Source: Candidatus Dadabacteria bacterium
GTDB lineage: Bacteria; Desulfobacterota_D; UBA1144; Nemesobacterales; Mycalebacteriaceae
NCBI GenBank assembly: GCA_026708565.1
Contig: JAPOUR010000003.1
Location: 1 to 44,931 of the forward strand
Direction: 5' to 3'
DNA: 44,931 bases
Each line of letters opens with the position of its first letter. Within the stretch, counting starts at the first letter, position 1. Shown here piece by piece: positions 5,451 through 44,931 of this stretch. The position numbers and the translations under genes were made by a program. The notes beneath the pieces were generated by a model. It did no database searches and was not told where the DNA came from. It was given only the letters and a program-made list of their open reading frames with translations.

Positions 5451-8210
5451 TTGAGTTTCATCACCATAAAGGGCGCGAGGAGTCACAACCTCAAAAACAT
5501 CAGCGCAAAAATCCCGCGCGGCAAACTTGTAACCATCACCGGCGTGAGCGGCAGCGGAAAGTCGTCCCTCGCGTTTGACACCCTTTTCGCCGAAGGGCAG
5601 CGCAGGTTTATGCAGTCTCTCTCCGCCTATGCGCGGCAGTTTGTGGAGCAACTGGAAAAACCCGATGTGGACTTTATTGACGGGCTTTCGCCGTCCATAT
5701 CGCTTGACCAGAAAAGTTTCCACCGCAACCCGCGCTCAACTGTCGGCACGATAACCGAGATTTACGACTACATGCGCCTGCTGTTCGCAAGGGCGGGCGC
5801 GCCGATGTGCCCCCGCTGCGGCGAGGAAATCACCGCCCAGAGCGCCGGGGCAATGGCAAAACGCGCGGTCGCGGCGGCGCGGGGCGGCGAAGCGCGGATT
5901 ATGTCCCCCATCGTCCGGGGAAGGAAAGGCATATACCGCAAGGAGATTGAGGAGTTAAGGGCGGAGGGGTTTGTGCGCGCCGTCATAGACGGGGAGGAAA
6001 GAGACCTGGACGAGGACATATCACTTGAGAGAAACAAGGCGCACGACATACTGGCGGTCATTGACACGGCGGACACCTCAAAGCCCGGCGCGCTTGAGAG
6101 GGTTGAGGGCTCAATTGAACTCGCGCTCAAAAAATCCGGCGGGGCGGCGGTCTGCGAGGCGGGGGGCAGAACGCTTAATTTCAACTCCGTGTTTTCATGC
6201 CCGTCCTGCGGGGCGGCATACGGGGAGATCTCCCCGAGACTGTTCTCCTTCAACAGCCCCTACGGAATGTGCGCAAAGTGCGGCGGCCTCGGCGAGGAGA
6301 CAAGGTTTCGCGCCGACCTGCTGGTGGACTCCTCCCTGTCAATAGAGGCGGGAGCGATACGCCCCTGGAAAAACTCGCGGTATCACAGGCGGCTTATGGA
6401 GCGGGCGGCGGAGTATCACGGCTTCAGCACAAGCGCCCCTTTCGGCAAACTGTCCGCGCGGCACAGGCGGCTTATCCTTGAGGGGGACGGCGCGGGGGGG
6501 GAGTTCCCCGGAGTGATAGGCTCGCTTTCGCAATGGATGAGCGAAACCTCGTCCGCCGGGGCGCGGGAGGGCATTTCCGCCTACACGGAAACGGTTTCGT
6601 GCGGCTCGTGCAAAGGGGCGCGCATAGGGGCGGAGGGGCTTTCGGTTCTGGTGGACGGCAAAACCATTCACGATGTCTCGCGGCTTGACGTAACGGACGC
6701 GGAAGGTTTCTTTGCCGGGCTCAAACTGGACGATTACGGAATGGCTGTGGCGGGCGGAGTCATAAGAGAGATAAAGTCAAGAATCGGGTTTCTGAAAAAT
6801 GTGGGTCTCGGATACATGACGTTTGACCGCCCCGCCACCACCCTTTCGGGCGGCGAGGCGCAGAGGATACGGCTCGCCACCCAGCTGGGCTCTTCAATGA
6901 CCGGCGTAACCTACGTTCTGGACGAGCCGTCCATAGGGCTGCACCCCTCGGACAACGACAAACTGATTCGCACTCTCAGGTCAATGAGGGATGACGGCAA
7001 CACGGTTGTGGTGGTGGAGCATGACGAAGACACGATAAGAAGCAGCGACTTTGTTCTTGACCTCGGACCCGGAGCGGGAGCCGCCGGAGGGGAGATCATC
7101 GGGTGCGGAACGGTGAAGGATTTGACGGCGGACAAGAGGTCTCTCACCGGCAAATACCTCGGCGGCGAGCACTCCATTGAAGTGCCGGAGAAGCGCAGAA
7201 AGACGGAAAAATTCATTGAGGTAAGGGGCGCGAAGAAGCACAACATATCGGGGCTGAACGTATCGTTTCCGGTCGGGGTTTTCACTTGCGTTACGGGCGT
7301 TTCGGGTTCGGGCAAAAGCACGCTCATACATGAAATACTGCTGCCCGCACTGCGGGACGGCGGACTGCGCGGGGCGCGGAACGTGGACAAAGTGATAGAG
7401 ATAGACCAGACGCCGATAGGCAGAACGCCGAGGTCAAACCCCGCCACATACACGGGCGTTTTCTCTCCCATACGCGAGCTGTTCGCCATGACTCCGGAGG
7501 CGAAGGTACGGGGCTACGGAGCGGGAAGGTTCAGTTTCAACGTGCGCGAGGGCAGTTGCGGCCTGTGCGAAGGCAAGGGCAGCGTGAAGGTTGAGATGCA
7601 CTTTCTGCCGGATGTCTATACAACCTGCGAACAGTGCGGCGGACTGCGCTACGGCACGGAGACGCTTGAGGCAACCTACAGGGGCAAAAGCATAGCCGAT
7701 GTTCTCGGAATGACGGCGGCGGAAGCGGCGGACTTTTTCTCAAACATTCCGCAGATAAGCCGCAGGCTGAACGTGGTTGAGAATGTGGGGCTGGGCTACA
7801 TACGGCTCGGACAGGAGGCGAACACCCTTTCGGGCGGCGAGGCGCAGAGGATTAAAATCGCAAAGGAGCTTTCCCGCAGGGAAACGGGCAACACCCTTTA
7901 CATTCTTGACGAGCCGTCCATCGGGCTGCATTTTCACGATGTGAAAAAACTTCTCTCGGCAATGGAGAGGCTGCTCGCGCGGGGAAACACGGTGATAGTC
8001 ATAGAGCACAACACCGACATAATAAAAAGCGCCGACCATATAATAGACATGGGCCCCGGCGGGGGCGCGGAGGGCGGCAAAATAGTGGCGGAGGGAACTC
8101 CGGAAGAGGTGGCGGGAGCGAAGAACTCCAAAACCGGGCTTCACCTGAAAAGGGCGTTGAAAACACCGAAGAAGAAAAAAGGGGGAACATCCCGAATTGG
8201 AAAAAATTGA
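5451..8210 (+). CDS. uvrA: UvrABC excinuclease subunit A
   Basis: 919 residues. This is the damage-sensing ABC ATPase of nucleotide excision repair, which loads UvrB. Seen: first Walker A 'GVSGSGKSS' (from residue 31), zinc-binding Cys pairs (CPRCG near 120; CPSC near 250 and CAKC near 274), first ABC signature 'LSGGEAQRIR' near 465 and Walker B 'VLDEPSIGLH' near 489; second Walker A 'GVSGSGKST' near 617, C-terminal zinc finger (CGLC...CEQC, about 703-731), second signature 'LSGGEAQRIK' near 793 and Walker B 'ILDEPSIGLH' near 820. Both ATPase modules are complete. The start is TTG 5451, which gives the family N-terminus 'MSFITIKGARSHNLKNI'. uppP overlaps the end by 14 bp. Confidence 0.98.
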   Translation: MSFITIKGARSHNLKNISAKIPRGKLVTITGVSGSGKSSLAFDTLFAEGQRRFMQSLSAYARQFVEQLEKPDVDFIDGLSPSISLDQKSFHRNPRSTVGTITEIYDYMRLLFARAGAPMCPRCGEEITAQSAGAMAKRAVAAARGGEARIMSPIVRGRKGIYRKEIEELRAEGFVRAVIDGEERDLDEDISLERNKAHDILAVIDTADTSKPGALERVEGSIELALKKSGGAAVCEAGGRTLNFNSVFSCPSCGAAYGEISPRLFSFNSPYGMCAKCGGLGEETRFRADLLVDSSLSIEAGAIRPWKNSRYHRRLMERAAEYHGFSTSAPFGKLSARHRRLILEGDGAGGEFPGVIGSLSQWMSETSSAGAREGISAYTETVSCGSCKGARIGAEGLSVLVDGKTIHDVSRLDVTDAEGFFAGLKLDDYGMAVAGGVIREIKSRIGFLKNVGLGYMTFDRPATTLSGGEAQRIRLATQLGSSMTGVTYVLDEPSIGLHPSDNDKLIRTLRSMRDDGNTVVVVEHDEDTIRSSDFVLDLGPGAGAAGGEIIGCGTVKDLTADKRSLTGKYLGGEHSIEVPEKRRKTEKFIEVRGAKKHNISGLNVSFPVGVFTCVTGVSGSGKSTLIHEILLPALRDGGLRGARNVDKVIEIDQTPIGRTPRSNPATYTGVFSPIRELFAMTPEAKVRGYGAGRFSFNVREGSCGLCEGKGSVKVEMHFLPDVYTTCEQCGGLRYGTETLEATYRGKSIADVLGMTAAEAADFFSNIPQISRRLNVVENVGLGYIRLGQEANTLSGGEAQRIKIAKELSRRETGNTLYILDEPSIGLHFHDVKKLLSAMERLLARGNTVIVIEHNTDIIKSADHIIDMGPGGGAEGGKIVAEGTPEEVAGAKNSKTGLHLKRALKTPKKKKGGTSRIGKN

Positions 8211-11405: not shown

Positions 11406-14227
11406 CGCCTGATGCAGTCCGCGACAAGGCGGGCGAAGTGGACGGGCTCGGCGCCGGAAAAGTGGCGTATCTGCTCCATGCATGAAACCCCCGTTGCGCA
11501 CACGCGCGCGCCCCGCCCGGCTTTCTCTATGGAGGGAACAAGCCTGTCCGAAGCCATCTTCTCCGACACGTCGTAATACTTTTTCTCATAACCGAACCCG
11601 CCCGCCATTCCGCAGCAGCCCGCCCCGGTGTCCGAGGAGTCAAACCCCAGCGCGTCCAGCGTCTCGCCGAGAGACGAGCCCGCCGCCCTGCCGTGGCAAT
11701 GGGTGTGGGCGATGACCCTTCCGGCGGGGATGTCCAGTTTTGCCGAAAGCGATTCGGCGCGGGGTTTTACAAACTCCTCAAGCGTGAAAAACATCCGCCC
11801 CACGGCCTCCCTCCCGCCGCTTTGGGGAAGCAGGTCGGCATAGTCGTCCGTGAACATTGAAACGCAGCTGGGCTCGGTCCCGATTATCGGTATGCCCCGC
11901 TCGGCGTAGGGGGCGAGAACCGAAACGTTGATTTCCGCATTTGCGCGCGCCTCCGCGACCATTCCCCGGCTCATCATCGGCCTGCCGCAGCAGACCCTGC
12001 GCTCTTCAACCGCCACCTCAAAACCGAGAGCCTCAAGGATTTCAACCGCGCCGCGCCCCGCTCCGGGGTTGTAAAACTCCGCCCATGTGTCGTGAAAATA
12101 AACCGCCTTTGCGCCCGCCGGGGCGGAGACGCCGCGCGCGGAAAACCAGTCGCTGAACCTCCGGCGAGCCAGAGCGGGAAACCGCCTCTGCGGGGCGATG
12201 CCGAGCAGACCCGTCAGCCCCGCTCCGGCGGCGGCGTCCGCAAGCAGGTTTGCCGCCGCCGGAGCGCGGGAGAGAACGGACGAAACCGCATGGGCGCGGG
12301 CAAACATTTTGTCCGTGAGCGAAAAACCCGCGCGTTTTCCCCTCTGCGCCAGAAACTCCGTTTTCATCTTTGCCACGTCAACCGAAGACGGGCATTCGGT
12401 TTTGCACGCCTTGCAGCCCACGCACAGGCCGAAAACCTCCTCCGCCTCTGCGGAGAAGATGAAATCATGGCCGACCTCGCCGTGAAGAACGGCTCGCAGC
12501 AGGTTTGCGCGCGCCCGTGTTGTGTGCGCCTCATCGCGGGTCGCCATAAAAGACGGGCACATCGCCCCGTCCCCCGTTTTTCTGCAAAGCCCCTGACCGT
12601 TGCATGCGGCAACCTCCGGCGCGAGGCCCCCGGACGCGCTCCAGTCCAGAACGGGCGCAAGGCGCGAGGAGTCCGCGCCCGCCGCCCTGAGGGTCGCGCC
12701 GGGGTTGCGCCGCGCGCTTACAACCTTGCCCGGATTCAGCGCGCCCGCCGGGTCAAAGATGTGTTTCAAGTCCTTCATCGCCCCGTAAATGTCCGCGCCG
12801 AAAAGCCGCTCGTTGAGGCGACTCCTCTGAAGCCCGTCCCCGTGCTCGCCGCTCATCACCCCTCCGTGTTTCAGGGCAAGCCCCAGCGCGGCGTCCGACA
12901 CCTCATCCATAAGCGTTGCCCCTTCGCGGGTTGAAAGGTCTATCAGCGGGCGTATGTGCAGGCAGCCCGCGCTTGCGTGGGCGTAGTAGCCGGCGGTGAG
13001 CCCCATGGACGAAAACACCTCCGATATGTCTTTCACATAGGCGGCAAGGGAGAAGACCGGAACTGACACGTCTTCAATGCACGGAATCGGCTTTGCGCCT
13101 GAGCGGGAACTCATCAGAAGCCCCAGACCCGCCGTCCTCACGCCCCAGACCATAGTCTGCTCTCTTTGTGAGAGGGCAAATCCCTTTTCGCACCGGACGC
13201 CTTCACGGGTGAGAAAACCGGCAAATCCCTCCGCCTTTTTGCGGCAGTCCTCATCCGTTTCGCCGAAGAACTCAACCGCCAGAACGGCTTCCGGCTCTCC
13301 TTTCACAAAAGACAGCATCCTTGAGTATCCGCCGTGTTTTCTCGTGAGTCCGATGAGCATTCCGTCTATGAGTTCAACCGCGGACGGCTCGCGCCGGAGA
13401 ATAAGGGGGACGCTTTCAATTGCGCGGAAAAGGTCGTCAAACTGCAAGACGCAGAGCGCCGTGCGGGCGGGTGTGTCAACAAGTTTGAGCGTCAGTTCGG
13501 TAGTCAGGGCGAGTGTTCCCTCGGACGAGGCAAGCAGTTTTGCCGGGTTGAAATTGTCGTCAAGTAGACAGTCCAGCGAGTAGCCGGAAGCCCGCCGCCA
13601 GTGGCGCGGGAAATCGCGCTCAACAAGGGCGCGGTTTGCGCCTCTGAAATCCTCAAGCGCTTTTGAAAGCCGCGCATCGGAGCATCCCGAAGCGGACAGG
13701 GAAACCTCATCGCCCGTGGCTATAACCGCCTTTGCGGACAGCAGGTTGTCGCCCGCCATTCCGTAAAGTATGGAGTGCGCGCCCGTTCCGTTGCTCGCCA
13801 CCACGCCGCCTGCGGTGGCAACTTTTGCGCTTGCGGGGTCGGGCCCGAACATCAGCCCTTTTTCTCCCGCCAGAGCGTTCAGCCGCCCGATGGTAACGCC
13901 CGGCTGCACTGTGGCGGTCTTGTTTTCGGCGTCAATGGCGGAAACGCCGTCCATATACTTGGACATGTCAACCGCTATTCCGTCTCCGAGGCACTGCCCG
14001 GCCAGCCCCGTCCCCCCGCCGCGCGGAAGAACGGAGACGCCGAATTCGCCCGCGATCCTGACGGTTTCCGCCACATCCTCCGCCGTGCGGGGAAGGACAA
14101 CGCCGAGCGGTTCAACGCGGTAGTTGCTTGCGTCCGTGGCGTAGAGGATTCTGTCTATTTTGCGAAAGCGGACTTCGGCGGAAGTGCGGGAGGCAAGGGT
14201 TTTTGCAAGTTCGGTTGAGAGAGGCAT
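11402..14227 (-). CDS. FAD-linked oxidase fused to Fe-S (CCG-domain) dehydrogenase, D-2-hydroxyacid dehydrogenase-like
   Basis: 941 residues. N-terminal half: FAD-binding type 4 domain of the VAO/GlcD family, with 'PRGGGTGLAGQCLGDGIAVD' and 'GVVASNGTGAHSILYG', and a FAD-oxidase C-terminal end 'GALNPGKVVSARR'. C-terminal half: [4Fe-4S] motif 'CVGCKACKTECP', and two CCG-type repeats ('RRVCCGRPMMSRG', 'GAGCCGMAGGFGYEKK'). This GlcD-GlcF-like fusion matches E. coli YdiJ-type and D-lactate/D-2-hydroxyglutarate dehydrogenases, which feed electrons to the quinone pool or another acceptor. The exact substrate cannot be read. ATG 14227 gives the natural N-terminus; a TTG 18 codons earlier is possible but its extension looks unstructured. 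Confidence 0.88.
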   Translation of the reverse strand: MPLSTELAKTLASRTSAEVRFRKIDRILYATDASNYRVEPLGVVLPRTAEDVAETVRIAGEFGVSVLPRGGGTGLAGQCLGDGIAVDMSKYMDGVSAIDAENKTATVQPGVTIGRLNALAGEKGLMFGPDPASAKVATAGGVVASNGTGAHSILYGMAGDNLLSAKAVIATGDEVSLSASGCSDARLSKALEDFRGANRALVERDFPRHWRRASGYSLDCLLDDNFNPAKLLASSEGTLALTTELTLKLVDTPARTALCVLQFDDLFRAIESVPLILRREPSAVELIDGMLIGLTRKHGGYSRMLSFVKGEPEAVLAVEFFGETDEDCRKKAEGFAGFLTREGVRCEKGFALSQREQTMVWGVRTAGLGLLMSSRSGAKPIPCIEDVSVPVFSLAAYVKDISEVFSSMGLTAGYYAHASAGCLHIRPLIDLSTREGATLMDEVSDAALGLALKHGGVMSGEHGDGLQRSRLNERLFGADIYGAMKDLKHIFDPAGALNPGKVVSARRNPGATLRAAGADSSRLAPVLDWSASGGLAPEVAACNGQGLCRKTGDGAMCPSFMATRDEAHTTRARANLLRAVLHGEVGHDFIFSAEAEEVFGLCVGCKACKTECPSSVDVAKMKTEFLAQRGKRAGFSLTDKMFARAHAVSSVLSRAPAAANLLADAAAGAGLTGLLGIAPQRRFPALARRRFSDWFSARGVSAPAGAKAVYFHDTWAEFYNPGAGRGAVEILEALGFEVAVEERRVCCGRPMMSRGMVAEARANAEINVSVLAPYAERGIPIIGTEPSCVSMFTDDYADLLPQSGGREAVGRMFFTLEEFVKPRAESLSAKLDIPAGRVIAHTHCHGRAAGSSLGETLDALGFDSSDTGAGCCGMAGGFGYEKKYYDVSEKMASDRLVPSIEKAGRGARVCATGVSCMEQIRHFSGAEPVHFARLVADCIRR

Positions 14228-14281
14228 TGTTAGGGAAGAGTTTAACCGGCGAAAGGCTGTGAACCTGACGCATTGCAACAA

Positions 14282-14512
14282 TCAATCGGATAAATATTCG
14301 CCGACCACTTCGTGAAAAGTGTGTTTTGTCAATTCTTGAATGCCAAGCTGGCTACAGATTTCCCGTGCGAGATACCTGCCAATTTCCCGATGGCGCGGAA
14401 TGGCCGCATGTTTACCGCTGGAAGGATTGAACCACCAAGAATGCCGCTTTCCTTCCCTTACAAATTCGCAACCATGGGACTCAAGATAGCGGATTAAGTC
14501 CCTTCGTTTCAT
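14282..14512 (-). CDS. hicA: HicA-family mRNA interferase toxin
   Basis: 76 residues. The double-stranded-RNA-binding-like HicA fold is seen in 'RYLESHGCEFVREGKRHSWW', with the catalytic His at H24, and in 'HAAIPRHREIGRYLAREI'. HicA cleaves mRNA and is neutralised by HicB. The start overlaps the preceding HicB-like gene by 4 bp (ATGA), the normal arrangement in hicBA operons where antitoxin and toxin are co-transcribed. No inactivating change was seen. Confidence 0.9.
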   Translation of the reverse strand: MKRRDLIRYLESHGCEFVREGKRHSWWFNPSSGKHAAIPRHREIGRYLAREICSQLGIQELTKHTFHEVVGEYLSD

Positions 14513-14727
14513 AACGTTATGGGAACTTCTTCGTATTCCTTACCGGCGGACTTTATAGCGTTTGAACGGTGAATTTCCAGCACTTCGCGCAAAGTAATCT
14601 TCAATGTCTCCAGAAGTTCCTCTCTGGTAGATTCCTGACAGGTAACACCGCTAACTTCCCCAATCCACCCAATCCACCACTTGCCGTCACGCCTTATGAT
14701 TGCAGTATATTGAGATTGTGAACTCAT
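14509..14727 (-). CDS. hicB: HicB-like antitoxin (cognate partner of hicA)
   Basis: 72 residues. Shows the short HicB/UPF0150 pattern 'YTAIIRRDGKWWIGWIGEVS' followed by 'TCQESTREELLETL' and a C-terminal helix; this WIGW variant is the form often coupled to HicA. No DNA-binding domain is attached. Two tandem ATGs (14730 and 14727) follow the Shine-Dalgarno AGGAGG; the second has better spacing (5 nt). It ends overlapping hicA by 4 bp. Confidence 0.85.
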   Translation of the reverse strand: MSSQSQYTAIIRRDGKWWIGWIGEVSGVTCQESTREELLETLKITLREVLEIHRSNAIKSAGKEYEEVPITL

Positions 14728-21799: not shown

Positions 21800-24700
21800 T
21801 TGCCCGAAATACGGAAGGGTTTTTCCATCTTCTTCTTGCAGGCATTCACAACAAAATTTTTCCATCGGCTCGCGGCGTTTGCCGCCGCCCTGTTCTTGCT
21901 GTGCCCGGAGGCGGAAGCCGTTGTCGTAAGGCCGGACATTCCGGTTACGGAAAACCTGATTCAGACCGGAAATGCGGCGGACGAACTCGTCATTGACAAC
22001 CTTGATGTTTTTGAGGAGGGAGTTTTTGCGGACTTCGGCGGCGGCACGGACACCGTAATTCTGACAACAAACGGCTCTTACAACGCGAGCCGGATAAGAC
22101 CCGGCGGGCGGTTTCGCAACTTTGAGAGGGTGATGCTTTCCGTCGGAGATGACGCGTGGACAATCAGCGTGCAGGACCTTGCCCTTGAACGGATAGACGC
22201 ATTCAGCGGCACGGACGGCCTCATACTCGGAGACGGCGACCATGACGCCTCGGACATCGGCGCGAACAGGCAATACAGAAACTTTGAGTTTGCAAACCTT
22301 TCCGCCGGAAACAATGTGTGGACGGCAACGGACGCGGACACGTCTCTTCAGTGGATAGACGCGCTGGGCGGAGCGGACACCGTTGCTCTCGGAAACGTGA
22401 GCGGGAATGCGGCGGACATCGGCGCAAACAGACGATACAGGGGCTTTGAGCGCGCCACCCTCTCCGACGGCGATGACGAGTGGGAATTCACGGACGGAGA
22501 TGCGGGGCTTCGGGAGATAGACGCGCTTGCCGGAACCGACCTGCTTGTGTTCGGAGACGGCAACCACAACTCGGAGGGTTACAGAAACTTTGAGCGCGCC
22601 CGGCTGTCGGACAACGACAATACATGGACGGTAACGGACGGGGACGCCGATTTTGAATACATAGACGCGCTGGACGGCGGCGGCGACACGCTCGCCTTTG
22701 AAAACGCGGCCGCAAGAAGCGCAAGGGAAATCGGCGGCGCGAGGCTGTACAGAAACTTTGAGCGCGCCTCGCTGTCGGACGGGGATGACTCATGGTCTGT
22801 TACGGAAAACGACGATGAACTCACGGCGATAGACGCGGGCGGCGGAACCGCCGATACGCTGGAGGGCATGATAGCGGACGCCGGGGATGACGGCGTATTC
22901 AACGCCTCGGACTCTAACTTTTCGGCGGGCGACATCACGGCAAAATACCAGAACTTTGAGCAGGTTGCGGTCGGAACATCTGACGGGAGCGACACATGGA
23001 CGGCGGGCGCGGCGGACACAACCAAGACTTGGGAGTGGATAAGCGGAAGGGACGGTTTTGACACGCTCAATCTCGGAGACGGCGACCATGACGCCTCGGA
23101 CATCGGCGCGAACAGATTCTACAGAAACTTTGAGCGCGCCCTGCTTTCGGCGGGCGGCAACATCTGGACGGTTACGGACGGAGACGCCGACCTTGAGCGC
23201 ATAGAAGCGCTCGCTGGAACGGACACGGTTGTCTTCGGAGACGGAAATCACACAATGACCAGAAAATACAGGGGCTTTGAGTTCGCAAACCTTTCCGCCG
23301 GAGACAATGTCTGGACCGCCACGGAGGTGGACAAAGGTCTTGTGGCGATAAACGCGCTCGGCGGAACGGACACCCTTGTTCTCGGAGACGGCGGCCACAA
23401 CGCGGCGGACATCGGCGCGAACAGACTGTACAGGAACTTTGAAAACGCCGAACTGTCCGCCGGAAGCAATACGTGGACAATTACGGGCGGAGACACCGGC
23501 CTTACGGCGATAGACGCCCTTGCCGGAACGGACACCCTTGTTTTGGGAGACGGCGGACACAGCGCGGCGGGCGCGGGGATTGGCGGAAAATATAGAAACT
23601 TTGAGAGCGCGGAACTGTCTGCGGGAAACAACTCGTGGTCTGTCGGCGCGGGAGATGATGAACTTGAAATCATTGACGCGCTCGGCGGAACGGACACCCT
23701 CGCGCTGGGAGGGGGAAGCCACAACGCGGCAGACATCGGCGCGGAAAGAAAATACAGAAACTTTGAGAGCGCAAACCTGTCGGCAAGCGCCGACATCTGG
23801 ACAATCACGGACGATGATGCGGCGCTTCAGTCAATAGATGCCGGCGGCGGAAGCGACACACTGGAAGACGGGCTCGCCGACATCGGGAGAGACGGCATTT
23901 TCAACGCCTCGGACTCGGACTTCTCAAGCGGCGACCCCGGAACGGGCGATTACCGGAAATACCTGAACTTTGAGCGGGTGGCGGTCGGAACATCCGACGG
24001 GAGCGACACATGGACGGTAAACTCCGCGGACGACACGGCGAAAGGGTGGCGGTGGATTAACGCAAGGGGCGGGACGGACACCCTCGCCTTTGGAGACGGA
24101 AACCACAGCGCGGCAAATGCCGGCGCGGCCCGGTTCTACAGAAATTTTGAAAGGGCGGAACTATCGGACGGGGATGGCGCATGGTCTGCCGGCGCGGAGG
24201 ATGACGAACTTGAGATTATAGACGCGCTCGGCGGAACGGACACCCTCTCTCTGGGAGACGGCGGCCACAATGCGGCAAACATCGGCGCGGAGGGGAAATA
24301 CAGAAACTTTGAAAGGGCGGAGTTGTCGGACGGAGACAACTCATGGGAGTTCACGGACGGAGACGCGGGCCTTGCGGAGATAGACGCGCTCGGCGGAACG
24401 GACACGCTGACCTTCGGCACGGGACACCACAACAGCGGAAGATACAGAAACTTTGAGTTTGCAAACCTTTCCGCCGGGGATGACATCTGGTCTGTTACCG
24501 CAGGAGACGCCCAGTTTGACAGTGTGAATGCGGGCGGCGGAACGGACACGCTGGAAGACCTGCTTTCCGACAGCGAAAGGGACGGGATTTTCAACGCCTC
24601 GGACTCATCTTTCTCGCCCGGCGACATCGGGTCGGGCGATTACGCCAACTATGCGAGGTTTAATCAAGTCGCGGTCGGAACCGGAAGCGGCAATGAGGTC

Positions 24701-27700
24701 TGGACGGTTAACCCGCCGGTTGACACGGCGAAAAACTGGCAATGGGTAAGCGGAAGGGACGGGGTTGACACGCTCGCCTTTGGAGACGGCGACCACAGCG
24801 CGGCGAATGTCGGCGCGGGGGAATTCTACAGAAACTTTGAGCGCGCCACGCTTTCAGACGGCGACAACATCTGGTCTGTCACCGGAGGCGAAGGCGGGCT
24901 TGAAACAATAGACGCGCTCGGAGGGACGGACACACTTGCTTTCGGCGCGGGCAACCATGACGGAAGCGCGCTTGCGCGATACTCAAACTTTGAGCGCGCC
25001 ACGCTTTCAGACGGGAACGACAGGTGGGCGGCCGGGGCGAACGACTCCGACCTGATGCTTATAGACGCGATGGGCGGAGACGATGTGCTCGCCTTCGGCA
25101 CGGGACATCACAACAGCGTGGGGTATGCGAATTTTGAACGCGCCGCCCTCTCGGACGGGGATGACGCATGGTCTGTGACTGAGGGGGATGACGCATTTGT
25201 CCGCATAGAAGCGCTCGGAGGGACGGACACGCTGGAAGACTTTATAGCGGACGGCGGGGATGACGGAATCTTCAACGCTTCGGACTCGGACTTCTCCGCT
25301 AATCAAGTCTTCAGTGGCAACTACGCAAAATACAGGAATTTTGAGCGGGTTGCGATTGGAACAACAAACGGGGCTGACTCATGGACGGCGAATGCCGCGG
25401 ATGACACAGGGAAAGGATGGCAGTGGGTAAACGCCAGAGAGGGAAAGGACACGCTTTTGCTGGGAAGCGGAAACCACAGCTCTCTGGCAATCGGCGCGAA
25501 CAGGTTTTACAGAAACTTTGAGAGAGCCGAGCTGTCCGCGGGGAACAACACGTGGTTTGCCGGAGCGGGCGACGCCGGACTTGAAGAAATAGACGCGCTT
25601 GACGGGACGGACCTTCTCAGCTTCGGAGCCGGAAGCCACAGCGCAGCGGAAATAGGCATGAGCAGAAAATACCAGAACTTTGAGCGCGCCGAACTGTCCG
25701 CCGGAAACAATGTGTGGTCTGTTACTGCGGGCGAAGGCTCAAGCGGGCTTGAGTGGATAGACGCGCTTGGCGGGACGGACACCATTGTCTTTGGAAACGG
25801 AAGCCATGACGCGCAAGACATCGGCAACAACTTGTTTTACAGAAACTTTGAGCGCGCCGAACTGTCCGCCGGAAACAACTCATGGACGGTCGGCGGGGAA
25901 GATGACGGACTGGTCTCAATAGACGCGCTCGGCGGCGCGGACACCCTTGAATTCGGGGACGGAAACCACGAGATGACGGCGAAATACGCCGGGTTTGAGT
26001 TTGCAAATCTCTCCGCCGGGGAAAACATCTGGACGGTTACGGGGTTGGACGGGAGGCTTGAGTATGTGAATGCCATGGCGGGAACAGACACGCTTGCATT
26101 TGGAAACGGCGACCACAGCGCGGCGAATGTCGGCGCGGACGGGAAATACAGGCAGTTTGAGCGGGCGGAGTTGTCCGCCGGAAACAATGTGTGGACAGTT
26201 ACGGGACGGGACACCGGCCTTGCGGAAATAGACGCGCTCGGCGGAACGGACACGCTGGAAGACCTGATTGCCGATGCCGGAGGGGACGGCATTTTCAACG
26301 CCTCGGACTCAGTCTTCTCCTCAAGCGACCCCGGAACGGGCGCTTACACGCGATACCAGAACTTTAACCAAGTGGCGGTCGGAACGGGAAGCGGCAATGA
26401 AGTCTGGACGGTTGACCGGTCGGCAGACGCGGCGAAAGACTGGCAATGGGTAAGCGGAAGGAACGGGGTTGACACGCTCGCCTTTGGAGACGGCGACCAC
26501 AGCGCGGCGGATGTCGGCGCGGGCGAATTCTACAGAAACTTTGAGCGGGCGACCCTTTCAGGCGGCGACAACATCTGGTCTGTTACCGTAGGCGAAGGCG
26601 GGCTTGAAACAATAGACGCGCTCGGAGGGACGGACACCCTTGCTTTCGGCGCGGGCAACCATGACGGAAGCGCGCTTGCGCGATACTCAAACTTTGAGCG
26701 CGCCACCCTTTCAGGCGGGGACGACAGTTGGGCGGCCGGGGCGAATGACTCCGACCTCACCTACATAGACGCGCTCGGAGGAGAGGACGCCCTCATACTG
26801 GGAAGCGGAGACCACGATGCGGCAAATATCGGCACGGGCAAAAGATACAGAAACTTTCAGAGGGCCGAACTGTCCGCCGGAGACAATGTGTGGTCTGCCA
26901 CCGCCGGTGAAGGCGGGCTTATGTGGATAGACGCGCTCAACGGAGCTGACACCATCGTCTTTGAAAACGGAAACCATGACGCGCGGAACATCGGCAACGA
27001 CCGGCTTTACAGAAACTTTGAGCGCGTCCGCCTTTCGGGCGCGGAAAACGGCGACTGGTGGACGGTTACCGCCAGAGACAGCGGGATTGAACACGTGGAC
27101 GCCATGGGCGGAAACCGGGACACCATCGTATTGGGCGGCAACACCGATAACTACGGGCAGGTGCACATACGGGGCAAATACGCGCACTTTGAAAGAGTCC
27201 GCCTCTCGGACACGGCAAACGTCTGGACGGTTCGGGGAACGGATGAAAACCTTGAATACATAGACGCGCTCGGCGGCACAGACACCCTTGAGTTCACACA
27301 GGGCCGGGGCACCGCCTCGGACACGGGAGATAATGCGCGCTACAGGGGGTTTGAAAACGCCCGGCTTTCGGGTTTTGACGACTCATGGGAAAGGACGGAC
27401 GGAGACATCGACCTTACGGAAATAGACGCGCTGGGCGGAACCGACTTTCTGGAAGACCAGCTGCCGGACACGGGGGACGGCATTTTCAACGCCTCGGACT
27501 CGGACTTCTCCGAAAGCGACCTCGGAGGGGGCGATTACGCAAAATACCAAAACTTTGAGCGGGTGGCGGTCGGAACGACAAACGGAGATGACCTGTGGAC
27601 GGCGTCAAACGATGACTTCGGCAAAGACTGGGCATGGATAAACGCGAGGGAGGGATATGACACGCTCTCGCTGGGAGACGGCAACCATGACGCCTCAAAC

Positions 27701-30616
27701 ATCGGCGCGCGCAGGTTTTACAGAAACTTTGAGCGCGCGGGGCTCTCAACGGAAAGCAACACGTGGACCATCACCGAGAACGATTCGGGCATTGACGAGA
27801 TTGACGCGCTCGGCGGGTTTGACACCCTTGAGTTCGGAAACGGCAGTCACGACGGGTCGGTGCTTGAGAGATACAGAAACTTTGAGAGGGCGCGCCTCTC
27901 CGCAATAGAAGACGTTTGGACTGTCAGCGCGGCTGATTCCGGCCTCTCCTACATAGACGCGCTTGCCGGAACGGATGTGTTGAGGTTTGAGCAACTCAAT
28001 CCGGCGGGAAGGGTTCTCGGCGGAAACCACAGCGCGGTGAACATCGGCGCGGAAGCCAGATACAGAAACTTTGAGCGCGTGCAACTGGGGGGCGGACAGG
28101 ATTCGTGGACAATCACGGAGAGAGACAGCAATGTTGACTTTGTGGATGCGCGCGGCGGGCCCGACACGCTTATATTCGGCGATGGAAACCACAGCGCGGC
28201 AAATGTCGGCGCGAACATGTTCTACAGAAACTTTGAGGTCGCCGCGCTTTCGGTGGGAAACAACGAATGGACGGCCAACGCCGCGGACGAAAGGGGGCTT
28301 GTAGCCATAGACGCGCTGGACGCCGGGGACGGCTCGGACTCGGACACGCTCCTGCTGGGAGACGGCAACCACAGCGCGGCAAACATCGGCGCGAATGCCC
28401 TTTACAGAAACTTTGAGCGCGTGGAGATGTCTGCGGGAAACAATGCGTGGTTTGTCAGCGGGGGAGACACGGAACTGCTCTCAATTAACGCGCTCGGAGG
28501 AGTGGACACACTGGAAGACCTGCTTGCCGACGCCGGAGGAGACGGCATTTTCAACGCCTCGGACTCATCGTTCTCGCCCGGCGACATCGGGTCGGGCGAT
28601 TACGCCAACTATGCGAATTTTGAGCAAGTCGCGGTCGGAACCGGAAACGGGGACGACACATGGACGGTGAACTCGGCGGCGGACATGAACGCAATGAACG
28701 GGTGGCGGTGGATAAACGCAAGGGGGGGAACGGACACCCTTTCCTTTGGAAACGGGAATCACAGCGCGGCGAATGTCGGCGCGGAAAGGTTTTACAGAAA
28801 CTTTGAACGCGCCTCCCTTTCGGACACGGACAACAGGTGGGAAGTTGCGGGCGGCGAAGACGGCCTGATTGAAATAAACGGGCGTGCCGGGGAGGACGCC
28901 ATTGTTTTCGGAGACGGCGACCACGGCGGAAACGCGCTTGCGCGATACACAAATTTTGAGAACGCCCTTCTTTCAGGCGGGGTGAACACATGGGAGGTTG
29001 CCGGTGATGAGGGCGACCATGTGGATTATGTGGACGGGCTCGGCGGGACGGACACGATGCTGTTTGATGTGGGCGCAAATTCGTTCATGTCCTTTAACGG
29101 GGAAAATGTGGGCGACACGGAACTTTACAGAAACTTTGAATCCCTGCGCAAAACCGGAGAGGGAACTCTGTTTGTTCAGCGTCCCTTGAACCTTGAAAGC
29201 GGCGGAGACGTGCGGATTGACGAAGGGGCGGTCGCCTTCAGCATAAACATTGAAACGGCAAGCGGCATGGAGACCGGCGCCAACTCCGGCGCGATAACGG
29301 CGGACGCAATTCACGCCGGCCCCAACGCCGCCATTGCGGTGGGAGACTTTGACGTGGTCAGATTCTCGCACATTAACGACTCCGCCATCACCCTGTTCAC
29401 GGGCGACACCGCAAACACGGAGAGCGCCAACTTCTCAGACCCCGGCCTGTTTACGGACATTGTCGTCCGCCCGGACAATATCCTCCTCGCGCTGGACTCC
29501 GAGGAGGGGGCGCGCGAAGAGATAGAGGAAAGATTTGAAAATGACAACTCGCGCGAACTTCTCGTGGCGGTGCACCGCGCGCTCCGGAACAGGCGCGTGG
29601 AGACCGGTTCGGATGTGGGGGGCGTGGTGAGCCAGCTGGACGGCCGCACGGTTCTTGAGGGGGCCGTCCGCTCTCTTGTTCCGAGCGAGCACGCGGGGGT
29701 CAACTACGAAATAATTGACTTGCAGAGGGTTTTGTTTGATTCCATAGAGGAAAAGGCGGTGGAAGCCGTCCGGCTTATGCCGTGGGATGAGCGCTCGGAG
29801 AATGACACACACCGCGTTTTTGCGTCCGGGTTTGAGAAAACCTCTTCGGGCGGCCTCTACAAAACGGGTTCGCGCGGATACTCGGCGGGGGTTTACAGAG
29901 CCCTGTTTGACTCAAAAATGGGAGTGGGAATTTCAGGCGCCGCCACCTTCCTTGAAACCAGACGCGAGCGCGTGACCGAAAAAACCAGCGGCTTCCACGG
30001 AGCCCTTTATTCCAACTACGAATCGGGCGGGCTGTCTCTGAGGGCGGTGCTTGCGGCGGGAACGCACGAATACGATTCCGAAAGGAGTTCGGCTCTGCTG
30101 TCCCTCGGTGAAACCATCACGGGAAAAACCGACATACTGGTTTACGGCGGGCGCGTGTCCGCGGGGCTTGAGATCCTGCGCAACCTGCCCGTGAGGATAA
30201 AGCCCGACATCTCCTTCACCCTGTCGCAGGTCAGCGCGGACGGTTATTCCGAAAACGGCGGGATGAATATCTCGTTCGGGCGGTCAACCATGACTTCCGC
30301 CGAAGCGGGCGCAAGAATAAACGCCGCTTTCAACCCTCTCAAGGCGGGGCTCAGGACAATCGTCCAGCCGGAGATAGAGGCGGGCGTTTACTACGACTTT
30401 GCGGCGGCGGATGAAGAGAATGTGGCCGCCTCCATGCTTGGGGCGGATTACACGGTGCTGCGTCCGCAGACGGCGGATGACATACGTTATTTTGTCGGCG
30501 GAAAACTGATTCTGTCGGACCACAGAAATCTTGCCTTCAGGGTGGGTTACAGGGTTGACTTCTGGAACGGCATGCGCTCCTACATAGGTTCCGGGCAGTT
30601 CCATATCCGTTTTTGA
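21800..30616 (+). CDS. Giant repeat autotransporter (type Va secretion), 2938 residues
   Basis: Layout: a long signal peptide (residues 1-40, hydrophobic core 'LAAFAAALFLL', likely cleavage after 'PEAEA'); 42 tandem units from about residue 79 to 2450, each about 50-75 residues, with the core pattern 'YRNFERAELS', 'NNxWTVT', 'IDALGGTDTL' and 'FGDGNHSAANIGA'; a passenger end with 'TGEGTLFVQRPLNLESGG'; a helix-rich linker about 2575-2660; and a C-terminal beta-barrel about 2667-2938 ending 'SGQFHIRF' with the terminal Phe of outer-membrane proteins. Seven longer units (6, 12, 16, 20, 26, 33, 39) contain a dockerin-like loop such as 'DAGGDGIFNASDSDFS', which suggests calcium binding. The start is TTG 21800 with GAGGTG upstream, 2 nt after holB; metG follows after 6 nt. 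Likely surface-exposed adhesin or matrix protein (inference); no protease or lipase motif was seen. Confidence 0.9.
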   Translation: MPEIRKGFSIFFLQAFTTKFFHRLAAFAAALFLLCPEAEAVVVRPDIPVTENLIQTGNAADELVIDNLDVFEEGVFADFGGGTDTVILTTNGSYNASRIRPGGRFRNFERVMLSVGDDAWTISVQDLALERIDAFSGTDGLILGDGDHDASDIGANRQYRNFEFANLSAGNNVWTATDADTSLQWIDALGGADTVALGNVSGNAADIGANRRYRGFERATLSDGDDEWEFTDGDAGLREIDALAGTDLLVFGDGNHNSEGYRNFERARLSDNDNTWTVTDGDADFEYIDALDGGGDTLAFENAAARSAREIGGARLYRNFERASLSDGDDSWSVTENDDELTAIDAGGGTADTLEGMIADAGDDGVFNASDSNFSAGDITAKYQNFEQVAVGTSDGSDTWTAGAADTTKTWEWISGRDGFDTLNLGDGDHDASDIGANRFYRNFERALLSAGGNIWTVTDGDADLERIEALAGTDTVVFGDGNHTMTRKYRGFEFANLSAGDNVWTATEVDKGLVAINALGGTDTLVLGDGGHNAADIGANRLYRNFENAELSAGSNTWTITGGDTGLTAIDALAGTDTLVLGDGGHSAAGAGIGGKYRNFESAELSAGNNSWSVGAGDDELEIIDALGGTDTLALGGGSHNAADIGAERKYRNFESANLSASADIWTITDDDAALQSIDAGGGSDTLEDGLADIGRDGIFNASDSDFSSGDPGTGDYRKYLNFERVAVGTSDGSDTWTVNSADDTAKGWRWINARGGTDTLAFGDGNHSAANAGAARFYRNFERAELSDGDGAWSAGAEDDELEIIDALGGTDTLSLGDGGHNAANIGAEGKYRNFERAELSDGDNSWEFTDGDAGLAEIDALGGTDTLTFGTGHHNSGRYRNFEFANLSAGDDIWSVTAGDAQFDSVNAGGGTDTLEDLLSDSERDGIFNASDSSFSPGDIGSGDYANYARFNQVAVGTGSGNEVWTVNPPVDTAKNWQWVSGRDGVDTLAFGDGDHSAANVGAGEFYRNFERATLSDGDNIWSVTGGEGGLETIDALGGTDTLAFGAGNHDGSALARYSNFERATLSDGNDRWAAGANDSDLMLIDAMGGDDVLAFGTGHHNSVGYANFERAALSDGDDAWSVTEGDDAFVRIEALGGTDTLEDFIADGGDDGIFNASDSDFSANQVFSGNYAKYRNFERVAIGTTNGADSWTANAADDTGKGWQWVNAREGKDTLLLGSGNHSSLAIGANRFYRNFERAELSAGNNTWFAGAGDAGLEEIDALDGTDLLSFGAGSHSAAEIGMSRKYQNFERAELSAGNNVWSVTAGEGSSGLEWIDALGGTDTIVFGNGSHDAQDIGNNLFYRNFERAELSAGNNSWTVGGEDDGLVSIDALGGADTLEFGDGNHEMTAKYAGFEFANLSAGENIWTVTGLDGRLEYVNAMAGTDTLAFGNGDHSAANVGADGKYRQFERAELSAGNNVWTVTGRDTGLAEIDALGGTDTLEDLIADAGGDGIFNASDSVFSSSDPGTGAYTRYQNFNQVAVGTGSGNEVWTVDRSADAAKDWQWVSGRNGVDTLAFGDGDHSAADVGAGEFYRNFERATLSGGDNIWSVTVGEGGLETIDALGGTDTLAFGAGNHDGSALARYSNFERATLSGGDDSWAAGANDSDLTYIDALGGEDALILGSGDHDAANIGTGKRYRNFQRAELSAGDNVWSATAGEGGLMWIDALNGADTIVFENGNHDARNIGNDRLYRNFERVRLSGAENGDWWTVTARDSGIEHVDAMGGNRDTIVLGGNTDNYGQVHIRGKYAHFERVRLSDTANVWTVRGTDENLEYIDALGGTDTLEFTQGRGTASDTGDNARYRGFENARLSGFDDSWERTDGDIDLTEIDALGGTDFLEDQLPDTGDGIFNASDSDFSESDLGGGDYAKYQNFERVAVGTTNGDDLWTASNDDFGKDWAWINAREGYDTLSLGDGNHDASNIGARRFYRNFERAGLSTESNTWTITENDSGIDEIDALGGFDTLEFGNGSHDGSVLERYRNFERARLSAIEDVWTVSAADSGLSYIDALAGTDVLRFEQLNPAGRVLGGNHSAVNIGAEARYRNFERVQLGGGQDSWTITERDSNVDFVDARGGPDTLIFGDGNHSAANVGANMFYRNFEVAALSVGNNEWTANAADERGLVAIDALDAGDGSDSDTLLLGDGNHSAANIGANALYRNFERVEMSAGNNAWFVSGGDTELLSINALGGVDTLEDLLADAGGDGIFNASDSSFSPGDIGSGDYANYANFEQVAVGTGNGDDTWTVNSAADMNAMNGWRWINARGGTDTLSFGNGNHSAANVGAERFYRNFERASLSDTDNRWEVAGGEDGLIEINGRAGEDAIVFGDGDHGGNALARYTNFENALLSGGVNTWEVAGDEGDHVDYVDGLGGTDTMLFDVGANSFMSFNGENVGDTELYRNFESLRKTGEGTLFVQRPLNLESGGDVRIDEGAVAFSINIETASGMETGANSGAITADAIHAGPNAAIAVGDFDVVRFSHINDSAITLFTGDTANTESANFSDPGLFTDIVVRPDNILLALDSEEGAREEIEERFENDNSRELLVAVHRALRNRRVETGSDVGGVVSQLDGRTVLEGAVRSLVPSEHAGVNYEIIDLQRVLFDSIEEKAVEAVRLMPWDERSENDTHRVFASGFEKTSSGGLYKTGSRGYSAGVYRALFDSKMGVGISGAATFLETRRERVTEKTSGFHGALYSNYESGGLSLRAVLAAGTHEYDSERSSALLSLGETITGKTDILVYGGRVSAGLEILRNLPVRIKPDISFTLSQVSADGYSENGGMNISFGRSTMTSAEAGARINAAFNPLKAGLRTIVQPEIEAGVYYDFAAADEENVAASMLGADYTVLRPQTADDIRYFVGGKLILSDHRNLAFRVGYRVDFWNGMRSYIGSGQFHIRF
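24661..25060 (+). repeat. Segmental duplication within the autotransporter, copy 1
   Basis: Covers the end of unit 16 through unit 18. It aligns without gaps to copy 2 at a constant offset of 1704 bp (568 codons), checked at several anchors, for example GCGGTCGG at 24671 and 26375, and GCCGGGG at 25031 and 26735. Identity is visibly far above that between ordinary units. Confidence 0.85.
26365..26764 (+). repeat. Segmental duplication within the autotransporter, copy 2
   Basis: Matches copy 1 (24661-25060) at an offset of 1704 bp without indels. Substitutions are scattered, for example 'SDGDNIWSV' in copy 1 and 'SGGDNIWSV' in copy 2. Upstream of the block the two units differ more, which fits copying by recombination between repeats. 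Confidence 0.85.
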
Positions 30617-41966: not shown

Positions 41967-42956
41967 TCAGTTTTCTATGTGGGTGCGAACCGGCATCTGG
42001 AGGTCTTCCAGCATTCTCAGGTCTTCTTCGGGGGAACGGCCGGGCGTGGTCAGGTAGTTGCCGATTATCATGGCGTTTGCGCCCGCGAATACGCCCATGG
42101 ACTGAAGGTCTCTGAGGGTTACTTCTCTGCCGCCGGATATCATCAGTATTTTGTCGGGAAGCACGAGCCGCCATATTGAGATCATCTTCACCGCTTCAAG
42201 CGGCTGAACCGGCTCAAATGCGGAAAACGGCGTTCCGGGGCGCGGGTTGAGGAAGTTGACGGGGACCCAGTTCGGGTCAAGTTCCCTTAACTCAAAGGCG
42301 AATTCAACTCTCTGGCGCACACTTTCGCCCATCCCTAAAATCCCGCCGGAGCAAAGGTTCATGCCCACTTTTTTAACAAGTTTCGCCGTGTTGACGCGGT
42401 CGTCATAGGAGTGTGTCGTAACAATGTTCGGGAAATGGCTTCTGCAAGTCTCAATGTTGTGGTTGTATCTCCAGACGCCGTGTTCTTTGAGCAGTATTGC
42501 CTGTTCTTCGGTAAGTTCTCCGAGCGAGCAGCCCACTTTCAGCCCCGTTTCCCTCACGAGCAGGTCAACCGCGCCGAGAACGCGTTTGAATATGCGCGGC
42601 GTGGGCCCCTTGGCGCTTATCACAATGCAAAAGTCCATCGCGCCCATTGCTTCCGCCTGTTTTGCGGCGCGAAGTATCTTTTCGTCCGCCATAAGCGGGT
42701 GCGCTTCAACGTCTGTGTCGTAATGGGCGGACTGGGAGCAGAAGGAGCAGTCTTCGGGGCAGTTTCCGGTCTGGGCGGAGATGATGGAGCGCAGAAAAAC
42801 GCCGTCTCCGTGGTGTTTCTTGGTCACATCGCGGGCAACGCACATAAGGTCTCCCACGTTTGCCGATGGAATATCGGCAAGCGCGAGCGCCTCTTCAAAC
42901 TCCAAGGGCTCTCCGCGCACGGCAACTTTGGTGTATATGTCGTCTATGAGAGTAAT
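41967..42956 (-). CDS. bioB: Biotin synthase, probable ATT start
   Basis: 329 residues from ATT 42956. Radical SAM enzyme inserting sulfur into dethiobiotin. Cluster motif 'TGNCPEDCSFCSQSAHYDTD' (C66, C70, C73), 'NHNIETC', 'NFLNPRPGTPFS' and the Arg of 'MISGGREVTL' (second cluster) are present. The usual GTG candidate (42920) has no Shine-Dalgarno and cuts off 'TLIDDIYTKVAVRGEPLEFE', which matches the normal BioB N-terminus (helix, then KV..GE.L..EEAL). An ideal GGAGGA lies 6 nt before the in-frame ATT, and no ATG, GTG or TTG exists between the upstream stop (42987-42989) and 42920. Confidence 0.93.
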   Translation of the reverse strand: MTLIDDIYTKVAVRGEPLEFEEALALADIPSANVGDLMCVARDVTKKHHGDGVFLRSIISAQTGNCPEDCSFCSQSAHYDTDVEAHPLMADEKILRAAKQAEAMGAMDFCIVISAKGPTPRIFKRVLGAVDLLVRETGLKVGCSLGELTEEQAILLKEHGVWRYNHNIETCRSHFPNIVTTHSYDDRVNTAKLVKKVGMNLCSGGILGMGESVRQRVEFAFELRELDPNWVPVNFLNPRPGTPFSAFEPVQPLEAVKMISIWRLVLPDKILMISGGREVTLRDLQSMGVFAGANAMIIGNYLTTPGRSPEEDLRMLEDLQMPVRTHIEN

Positions 42957-43011: not shown

Positions 43012-43042
43012 AGGGACGGGGCGGAGAAACAGGACCATATTG

Positions 43043-43138
43043 CGGAATCCGTGTTTTATGCGGATAACGGAATACGATGCCAAACCGCCGTAAGGGAATG
43101 GAAACCTGCCCGTCATTCCGTGCTCCGACACGGAATCC
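43043..43138. repeat. REP-like intergenic repeat element
   Basis: CGGAATCC occurs at 43043-43050 and again at 43131-43138. The second copy is part of a hairpin TTCCGTG (43116-43122) / CACGGAA (43129-43135) with a 6-nt loop, inside the sequence CGTCATTCCGTG...CACGGAATCCAG that is typical of widespread bacterial intergenic repeats. It lies between bioB and the AT-rich helicase gene, at the edge of the composition change. No gene is seen from 42990 to 43236. Confidence 0.55.
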
Positions 43139-43187
43139 AGAGGGGATGAGGGTGGTGTCCGTCAGCCCGAAGTGTGCGGTAAATCCT

Positions 43188-43216
43188 TTGACAGCCCGCG
43201 CACGGGGGTGTTAACT
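43188..43216 (+). promoter_or_regulatory. Promoter candidate for the DUF559-RecQ gene
   Basis: TTGACA (43188-43193), 17-bp spacer, TTAACT (43211-43216). Start predicted near 43223, followed by GGAAGG and ATG 43237. The -10 box is weak. Confidence 0.35.
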
Positions 43217-43236
43217 TCAAGCCTTGGAAGGTAAAG

Positions 43237-44931
43237 ATGAGATACACAGCAAACTACTCTCACAGCAACCACAACTTTGTAATCCAGAACCTTGAGGGTG
43301 AAAGGGTTGAAAGTAAATACTTGCCAGCAATTTGCATTCTTAAGAACATACTCCAACGGGGGAAACCAACACTTCTGTCAACCTTTCTTCAAGAGAAGAT
43401 TGGAGCAATCCACGAGAATAGAGATGTCTTTGAAAAACCCTACCCCTTAATTGACACAAAATTGCCGAAGTGGGACAAAACCATCAAAGGGGATGAGAAA
43501 CAGGACTACAATCCCGCCAAAGAATTCTTTAAAGACTTACCCAGATACTTGTCAGAATGCGAACTACCAGATTATGAATTCATCCAACAATTGCTTTTGC
43601 CTGAGGCTTCAATCAATGTAATTATCCCACCGAAAGATGGTGAAGAAGAACAAAAGTTTTTACGACAACAAGTCGATTTCTATTTACCTCAAGCTCGCTT
43701 AATCATTGAAATTGACGGTATAGATCCAGACACCAAAAGACCGCATGGCAATAGGCAAGAGAATGACTCTGGACGTGACCGTCACGCAAAAGATCGAGGA
43801 ATAGAGACAGTAAGAATCACTACTGTCGATTTGAAATCAAAAAATAAAACTTTCTGGAAGAAAATCGAAGCCATTAGAAATAGAATCATAAGAGAGCAAG
43901 AAAATCGCAGAGCAAAAAACAAGACTTTTATCTCCTTGAATGATTACAAGAAAGCATTTAAGGATGGTGTAGATTTGCAAGACCATAACTATCTGGCTAC
44001 AGCAATAATGCGTTTTCAGATTCTTTTGTTGGAGCTCCTTGAGCGTGGACTCATCAATTTCAACGAACCATGGGCATTTGAAATCATAGAAAGAGACGTG
44101 AAAGGTTTTGCCGAACTCGCAATTGAAGACCTTTTGGAATGGTTTCAGCATCTTTTAAACTTACAAAAAGTGGAATTTAGAAAACCAGAATACAAGATAA
44201 ATGATAAAATTCACTCTACAAAAGCAACCATCAAAATTGACTTTAGCCTCCTACAACGACACGATGAAAGCGCACAAGACAATGAAAGTATTATATTTGT
44301 AAGAAATGACTATCTGGATGAGTTCTACGACCACTTTCAAGTCTCTACATACAAACAAAAGATAAAGTATAAACTGAAAATTGGAGAAGAATCTTCTGAT
44401 GAAGCATCTTTGTGGTTTTTGTTGCTAAACATCTTTCTTCAAAACAATGAAAACCTTAATTTAGACACTCGCAATTTCAGAGAGGGGCAACTCGCCATTA
44501 TTGTAAACGCGCTATCGTGCAATGACACAATTGGACTTCTTCCTACTGGAGCAGGCAAGTCTGTCTGTTATCAATTGTCAGCCATCCTTCAACCGGCAAT
44601 CAGCTTTGTAGTTTGCCCACTCAAATCTTTGATGTATGACCAAAAAGATGAACTGGACTCTGTATATTTTACCCGAACCAACTACATAACAAGTGACGAT
44701 GACCCAGAAACCAGAGAAAGAACAATGAAAGAATTCGGAGAAGGGAAGTATCTTTTCATTTTAATTACACCGGAAAGATTTCAAATTAAATCATTTAGAG
44801 ATTATTTAAGGCGAGTCAATGATAGATTCTCAATTGCCTATGCAGTTATTGATGAAGTTCATTGTCTCTCAGAATGGGGACATGACTTTAGACTTTCTTA
44901 CCTCAATCTTGCAAACACAATACGAAACCAT
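43237..44931 (+). CDS. DUF559/Vsr-like nuclease domain fused to RecQ-type helicase, partial (3' end outside window)
   Basis: 565 residues are visible and the frame is open to the right edge. Residues about 140-200 look like a DUF559/Vsr-type PD-(D/E)XK nuclease: 'QQVDFYLPQARLIIEIDG' (Asp147, Glu158, Asp160) and 'SGRDRHAKDRGIETVRIT'. Residues 205-410 are a helical, unrecognised linker. From about 415 a RecQ-family SF2 helicase begins: 'DTIGLLPTGAGKSVCYQL' (Walker A 436-442), 'FVVCPLKSLMYDQKDEL', 'ILITPER', and 'YAVIDEVHCLSEWGHDFRLS' (DEVH in place of DEAH at 539-542). The second RecA lobe lies off-window. The DNA is AT-rich (bases 44161-44220: 15 of 60 G+C), unlike bioB (42601-42660: 35 of 60). 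Start ATG 43237 has GGAAGG upstream. A defence role is inferred from domain mix and composition. Confidence 0.8.
   Translation, partial: MRYTANYSHSNHNFVIQNLEGERVESKYLPAICILKNILQRGKPTLLSTFLQEKIGAIHENRDVFEKPYPLIDTKLPKWDKTIKGDEKQDYNPAKEFFKDLPRYLSECELPDYEFIQQLLLPEASINVIIPPKDGEEEQKFLRQQVDFYLPQARLIIEIDGIDPDTKRPHGNRQENDSGRDRHAKDRGIETVRITTVDLKSKNKTFWKKIEAIRNRIIREQENRRAKNKTFISLNDYKKAFKDGVDLQDHNYLATAIMRFQILLLELLERGLINFNEPWAFEIIERDVKGFAELAIEDLLEWFQHLLNLQKVEFRKPEYKINDKIHSTKATIKIDFSLLQRHDESAQDNESIIFVRNDYLDEFYDHFQVSTYKQKIKYKLKIGEESSDEASLWFLLLNIFLQNNENLNLDTRNFREGQLAIIVNALSCNDTIGLLPTGAGKSVCYQLSAILQPAISFVVCPLKSLMYDQKDELDSVYFTRTNYITSDDDPETRERTMKEFGEGKYLFILITPERFQIKSFRDYLRRVNDRFSIAYAVIDEVHCLSEWGHDFRLSYLNLANTIRNH

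Follow-up and report, generated by a model that had tools for sequence, protein, structure and literature searches.

We describe a gene for a Vsr/DUF559-like nuclease fused to a RecQ-type helicase, located at the end of a stretch of 44,931 nucleotides from a Candidatus Dadabacteria bacterium (contig JAPOUR010000003.1), the whole of which is referred to as the window. Judging from sequence comparisons, we see about an even chance that it represents the catalytic gene of an unnamed mobile two-gene module, tethered to the membrane and destroying invading DNA in defence of the cell or of the element carrying it. The fusion itself, proposed in a first-pass annotation of the window, is borne out by profiles, fold matches and invariant active-site residues.

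A Vsr-like nuclease precedes a RecQ-type motor

The window contains the 5' half of the gene (43237..44931; this and all features in this section lie on the forward strand), i.e. 565 codons with an ATG start and a frame still open at the contig end. The sequence GGAAGG ahead of the ATG (43226..43231) reads as a putative ribosome-binding site. In its sequence the gene product shows, in this order, a nuclease of the Vsr/DUF559 type, a middle region specific to the family, the RecQ-type helicase core and a C-terminal region of ~390 residues.

The nuclease domain is of the PD-(D/E)XK type and, based on profile and structure model, comprises residues about 82-231 (43480..43929). The Pfam DUF559 match of the window protein (residues 145-208) is marginal (E 0.0011, 19.3 bits compared to a cut-off of 20.6) and is made solid by relatives scoring above the cut-off (L016 30.8 bits, L003 38.5, L029 43.6) and by a structure model covering residues 1-398 (mean pLDDT 75, pTM 0.79). 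Three structures match this model over residues ~82-222: I-Bth0305I, which is a Vsr-like homing endonuclease (Z 10.4, rmsd 2.6, 97 residues), 3HRL, a DUF559 protein (Z 9.6), and 1CW0, a Vsr structure (Z 8.1); Foldseek by itself supports a Vsr-like fold weakly. D147, E158, D160, H170, D177 and R193 are identical in all 14 alignment rows, showing that Asp147 (codon 43675..43677) and the Glu158-Ile159-Asp160 motif (43708..43716) were correctly picked as catalytic in the first-pass annotation. The profile scores above the gathering score in relatives and the conserved D...ExD...H pattern place the domain among the DUF559/Vsr-like nucleases. It shares the nuclease fold and active-site arrangement with 3HRL, I-Bth0305I and the Vsr endonucleases, all of which, unlike the window protein, come without an attached motor. 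To the middle region (residues 232-405; 43930..44451) and the C-terminal region no family could be assigned, and structure comparison returned no fold match for them.

The motor begins with its first RecA-like domain (residues 410-565; 44464..44931), which is supported by a Pfam DEAD domain match at residues 416-560 and by fold matches to RecQ catalytic cores in the PDB. The Walker-A Lys441 within GLLPTGAGKS (44557..44559), likewise singled out before, is identical in all 13 rows covering this position. The Walker-B motif reads DEVH (residues 539-542; 44851..44862), as had been noticed and taken as a replacement of DEAH; the family alternates between V and A at position 541, some relatives having DEAH, so DEVH is ordinary here. 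The Walker A/B motifs and a profile extending across both RecA domains assign the motor to the RecQ-type SF2 cores, and the complete relatives L016 (221.4 bits), L020 (224.8) and L042 (250.3) pass the recQ_fam subfamily cut-off of 219.8 bits. A full-length model of the Plebeiobacterium protein is of poor confidence over RecA1 and was used for the overall RecQ match only. Scores on the housekeeping RecQ equivalog TIGR01389 amount to 127-268 bits compared to a cut-off of 640, its alignment stopping before RQC/HRDC, for which no match was found in the helicase core. The related RqlH clade is known for 3'-5' translocase activity, as stated in the title of Ordonez et al. 2012 (cited in PMC13316683).

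The second half of the gene and its membrane-anchored partner

A search of the bacterium's genome, in which the C-terminal half of an E. coli relative served as query, revealed an open frame of 592 codons that lies right at the end of contig C59 and represents the second half of the gene (L012 19584-17806, reverse strand; all L012 coordinates refer to this contig). Alignment of both halves to complete relatives leaves a gap of ~18 residues at the motor's TATAS motif, corresponding to ~53 nt of missing sequence. The join of the two contig ends is confirmed by synteny with a sister species of the same genus (G001), in which the genes flanking both ends, i.e. bioB, a GFA-like gene and an aldehyde dehydrogenase gene, adjoin. 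The right-hand flank and possible partner genes, both of which the first-pass annotation had recommended looking for, were obtained together, a partner gene lying behind the second half. The second half, this partner and the ShosTA-like extension of the proteobacterial branch escaped the first-pass annotation because all three are located beyond the window.

At all 13 examined loci with an intact 3' end, a small codirectional gene follows the nuclease-RecQ gene; these loci stem from several phyla and a prophage-like contig and include the window's locus. The two genes overlap by 4-38 nt in 12 of these loci (by 26 nt in six of them, one being the window's locus) and are spaced by 11 nt in one. 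The partner proteins, which measure 162-379 aa (107 aa in L042), form coiled coils whose sequence is hardly conserved. A single hydrophobic C-terminal segment (mean Kyte-Doolittle 2.2-3.3) is located at most 4 residues from the end in 12 of 12 partners measured, and the thirteenth, L042, shows the same kind of ending. At the two partnerless loci, L013 and L021, the nuclease-RecQ gene itself is cut short and transposase genes are adjacent. Nuclease-RecQ and coiled coil are hence a conserved pair, translational coupling being probable, and the second protein is membrane-anchored.

A small transmembrane protein next to another enzyme is also a common layout in abortive infection (PMC9122126), in which case the nuclease-helicase would mainly do the sensing and the effector would be the tail-anchored coiled coil, harming the membrane or halting growth on release. 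The partner's tail being conserved but not its coiled-coil sequence would fit this, as would the ShosT-like phosphoribosyltransferase (PRTase) module added in the proteobacterial branch. However, a single helix with almost nothing behind it resembles an anchor, and a pure sensor would not need the fully conserved nuclease active site, so we regard abortive infection as unlikely.

The gene opens an AT-rich island

The left flank of the insertion site is formed by bioB (41967..42920, reverse strand; protein 89% identical in G001). Homology to G001 breaks off at 43012 and is picked up again at L012 13324, and in G001 ~24 bp separate both points, which shows that an island was gained between bioB and the GFA-like gene, the site being empty in the sister species. 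The island, its left part being 43013..44931 of the window, is ~8.2 kb long with mostly 33-48% GC compared to 56% beside it, and the nuclease-RecQ gene is its first gene. The first-pass annotation had pointed to AT-rich DNA, and the values of 33-42% GC compared to about 56% in the surroundings agree with this; the mobile-island setting it had suggested is backed by the foreign base composition and the empty site. The repeat beside which it had placed the gene is probably a palindrome-like unit upstream of the gene (43111..43141), which is present as a single copy in the window.

Besides nuclease-RecQ and the coiled-coil protein, the cargo of the island includes a UvrD-like helicase encoded downstream of the partner, as well as two features of opposite orientation, a SLOG-like ORF and an AAA ATPase. 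The UvrD helicase (L012 15254-17179) is GajB/PcrA-like without a GajA neighbour; it is absent beside the pair in other loci and was rejected as part of the module. The small SLOG-like ORF, without Pfam match, and the AAA ATPase lie on the opposite strand at L012 13464-15225.

RecQ motors normally work in repair, and the gene might accordingly code for a host-serving DNA-repair or recombination enzyme. The genome possesses a separate housekeeping RecQ gene on contig C40, and a search of 100 related genomes gave no match to the nuclease-RecQ gene, where the first-pass annotation had named a core-genome repair helicase in relatives as the outcome opposing its reading. Given these findings, the sporadic distribution, the foreign base composition and the empty site in G001, we rejected identity with the core RecQ repair helicase and consider a host-serving repair role highly improbable.

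Relatives are scattered and travel with mobile elements

Relatives were found by profile-guided scans of genome and viral collections, in which single-sequence scans gave nothing. In the N-terminal part, proteins of Plebeiobacterium, Cyclobacterium, Brumimicrobium, Flavobacteriales, Cryomorphaceae and Balneolaceae are 43-55% identical to the window protein and those of Bacillus, Advenella, Maribrevibacterium, Vibrio thalassae and Marinobacterium 34-38%. Among 386 other genomes only two have members, both being divergent with an N-terminal zinc ribbon, one from the window's own order (L029 in G022) and one from another lineage (L042 in G144). One viral contig carries a relative according to the profile-guided scan; the phage collection yielded RecQ-motor matches only. 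Plasmid-borne relatives occur in E. coli, Klebsiella, Raoultella and Haliscomenobacter, and among complete E. coli genomes only 7 of 5,426 are carriers.

In the tree the window protein lies loosely among Bacteroidota rows, nearest to Cyclobacterium (61% identity) with modest grouping support; this position and the base composition fit an acquisition from a Bacteroidota-like source. In the forms from E. coli, Klebsiella, Vibrio and marine gammaproteobacteria, the N-terminus is extended by ~390 residues, which contain a HAD domain and a segment resembling a PRTase. This N-terminus matches the HAD_2 and ShosT profiles, the upstream DprA-family gene matches ShosA, and the carriers form one clade in the tree, suggesting that the HAD-PRTase N-terminus is a later addition.

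The neighbourhoods are of the defence and mobile-element type. Type I restriction genes adjoin both the chromosomal copies in E. coli, one strain also having an MZA system, and plasmid copies. Phage tail genes are found on a plasmid carrying a relative. The Flavobacteriales copy adjoins ZorA/ZorB-like and DarT-like genes, the viral contig copy directly follows an integrase, and L022 and L023 lie within a conjugative element adjacent to TraU and TraN. ICEValHN396 has been reported to contain dprA and recQ, without further analysis (PMC4857294).

Carriers thus including conjugative elements, plasmids and a prophage-like contig, the module might serve competition between elements, acting against plasmids or conjugating DNA or stabilising its own element rather than acting against phages; DprA-type partners handle single-stranded DNA (PMC9122126), which would agree with such a role. 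Against this, many hosts, the window's genome included, have chromosomal copies beside anti-phage systems, and we consider inter-element competition improbable.

Comparison with known systems

Helicase-nuclease defence proteins and RecQ/DprA/PRTase systems are already known kinds. The literature searched gave no description of a nuclease-RecQ layout with a membrane partner, in line with the first-pass annotation, which had pointed to no named system of exactly this layout. The antitoxins of ShosTA, PsyrTA and RqlHI are DprA-like proteins, and a DprA plus PRTase pair confers protection from T7 and lambda (PMC9122126). In RqlH, a RecQ-like helicase, the genotoxic PRTase domain is kept in check by RqlI (PMC4670107).

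The family resembles PsyrTA/RqlHI in having a RecQ-like motor without RQC/HRDC match and, in the proteobacterial branch only, in the DprA-family link and the presence of a PRTase. In contrast to PsyrTA/RqlHI, it has a Vsr-like nuclease ahead of the motor and always the membrane coiled coil, and the PRTase, C-terminal in PsyrTA/RqlHI, is N-terminal in the proteobacterial branch and accompanied by a HAD domain. The window's branch has neither a PRTase nor an adjacent DprA gene: no DprA-family antitoxin gene adjoins the window's locus, whereas the proteobacterial branch has one. Identity with PsyrT/RqlH was rejected since the C-terminal half contains no PRTase and the PsyrT profile covers the motor alone. 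As for ShosTA, the ShosT and ShosA profiles match the N-terminal module and the upstream DprA of proteobacterial relatives; in ShosTA, PRTase and DprA stand alone, whereas in these relatives they are fused to the nuclease-RecQ chassis. Both a ShosT-like PRTase and a ShosA-like DprA are present in the E. coli relative, and neither was found at the window's locus.

DUF4011-helicase-Vsr is another defence fusion, with a different helicase family and the Vsr domain at the C-terminus. ARMADA YprA-family helicases (PMC12458937) likewise combine a helicase and a Vsr-type nuclease in one defence protein, differing by the helicase family and by the C-terminal Vsr domain, compared to a Vsr-like domain N-terminal to the RecQ motor in the window family.

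DpdF, a RecQ-like helicase of a 7-deazapurine DNA-modification system, has to be considered because the PADLOC profile PDLC02868, which bears this name, aligns with almost the entire protein (E 2.7e-58) and reaches 376 bits in the E. coli relative. On the NCBIfam equivalog NF041063, however, with a cut-off of 550 bits, the window half scores 76 bits and complete relatives 130-161, the genome's housekeeping RecQ scoring higher at 180 bits. Moreover, the genome (96% complete) has no DpdA match and the annotated loci of relatives are devoid of Dpd genes. We therefore rejected Dpd membership, the chance of a DpdF component being close to nil; since PDLC02868 covers the protein, annotation pipelines may mislabel nuclease-RecQ as DpdF.

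A model for a mobile anti-invader module

The conserved nuclease and motor active sites, the fold matches, the constant partner, the mobility, the defence-type settings and the rarity in E. coli favour the destruction of invading DNA as the module's task, and so do the ShosT/ShosA profile matches together with the phage protection conferred by a DprA plus PRTase system (PMC9122126). According to this model, the second protein would anchor the nuclease-RecQ protein at the inner membrane, where ends, forks or single-stranded gaps might give foreign DNA away; the motor would then translocate and unwind, and the nuclease would cut the DNA. In the proteobacterial branch, the fused HAD-PRTase, probably checked by DprA by analogy to ShosTA/RqlHI, might add a suicide arm. 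We infer the tethering and the DNA target and, from the genomic context, the purpose in defence. The mobile defence gene envisaged in the first-pass annotation is hence supported in its mobile part by the island and the empty site in G001, its defence part being suggested by context. Counting against the model, mobile-element neighbourhoods carry non-defence cargo too, and ~53 nt of the window's own gene fall into the sequence gap.

Somewhat short of an even chance, we envisage a new defence family in which a membrane-tethered nuclease-RecQ chassis would be extended by a ShosTA-like HAD-PRTase/DprA pair as a proteobacterial add-on, acting by DNA destruction or by the suicide arm. If it acts in defence, this would be a widely travelling system with carriers in E. 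coli, Klebsiella, Vibrio and Bacteroidota, to which current tools attach no label but "DpdF" or plain "RecQ". Its fused proteobacterial form would tie two toxin-antitoxin pairs, ShosTA and RqlHI, to the nuclease-helicase chassis, making a shared trigger testable. The constant membrane-anchored partner suggests how a DNA-destroying motor may be kept at the membrane.

Further observations on the contigs

The window contains an ORF of 2,938 codons without Pfam match at 21800-30616. On contig C59, a 371-aa protein and a Fic/DOC-family protein (L012 3143-5489) are encoded between the PRPP synthetase and enoyl-CoA hydratase genes, neither being at that place in G001. Another insertion (L012 7904-12865), not at that place in G001 either, separates the GFA-like gene from the aldehyde dehydrogenase gene and encodes one TolQ/MotA-like protein, one TolR-like protein and one protein of 1,102 aa that contains two FGE-sulfatase domains. 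The AT-rich island has a short tandem array of 10-bp units, TTTATCCC/TTATAACC, at its right edge (L012 13379-13458). On either side of the L042 island in G144 lies a copy of one and the same gene fragment (6448-6786 and 13930-14694), as if inserted with duplication.
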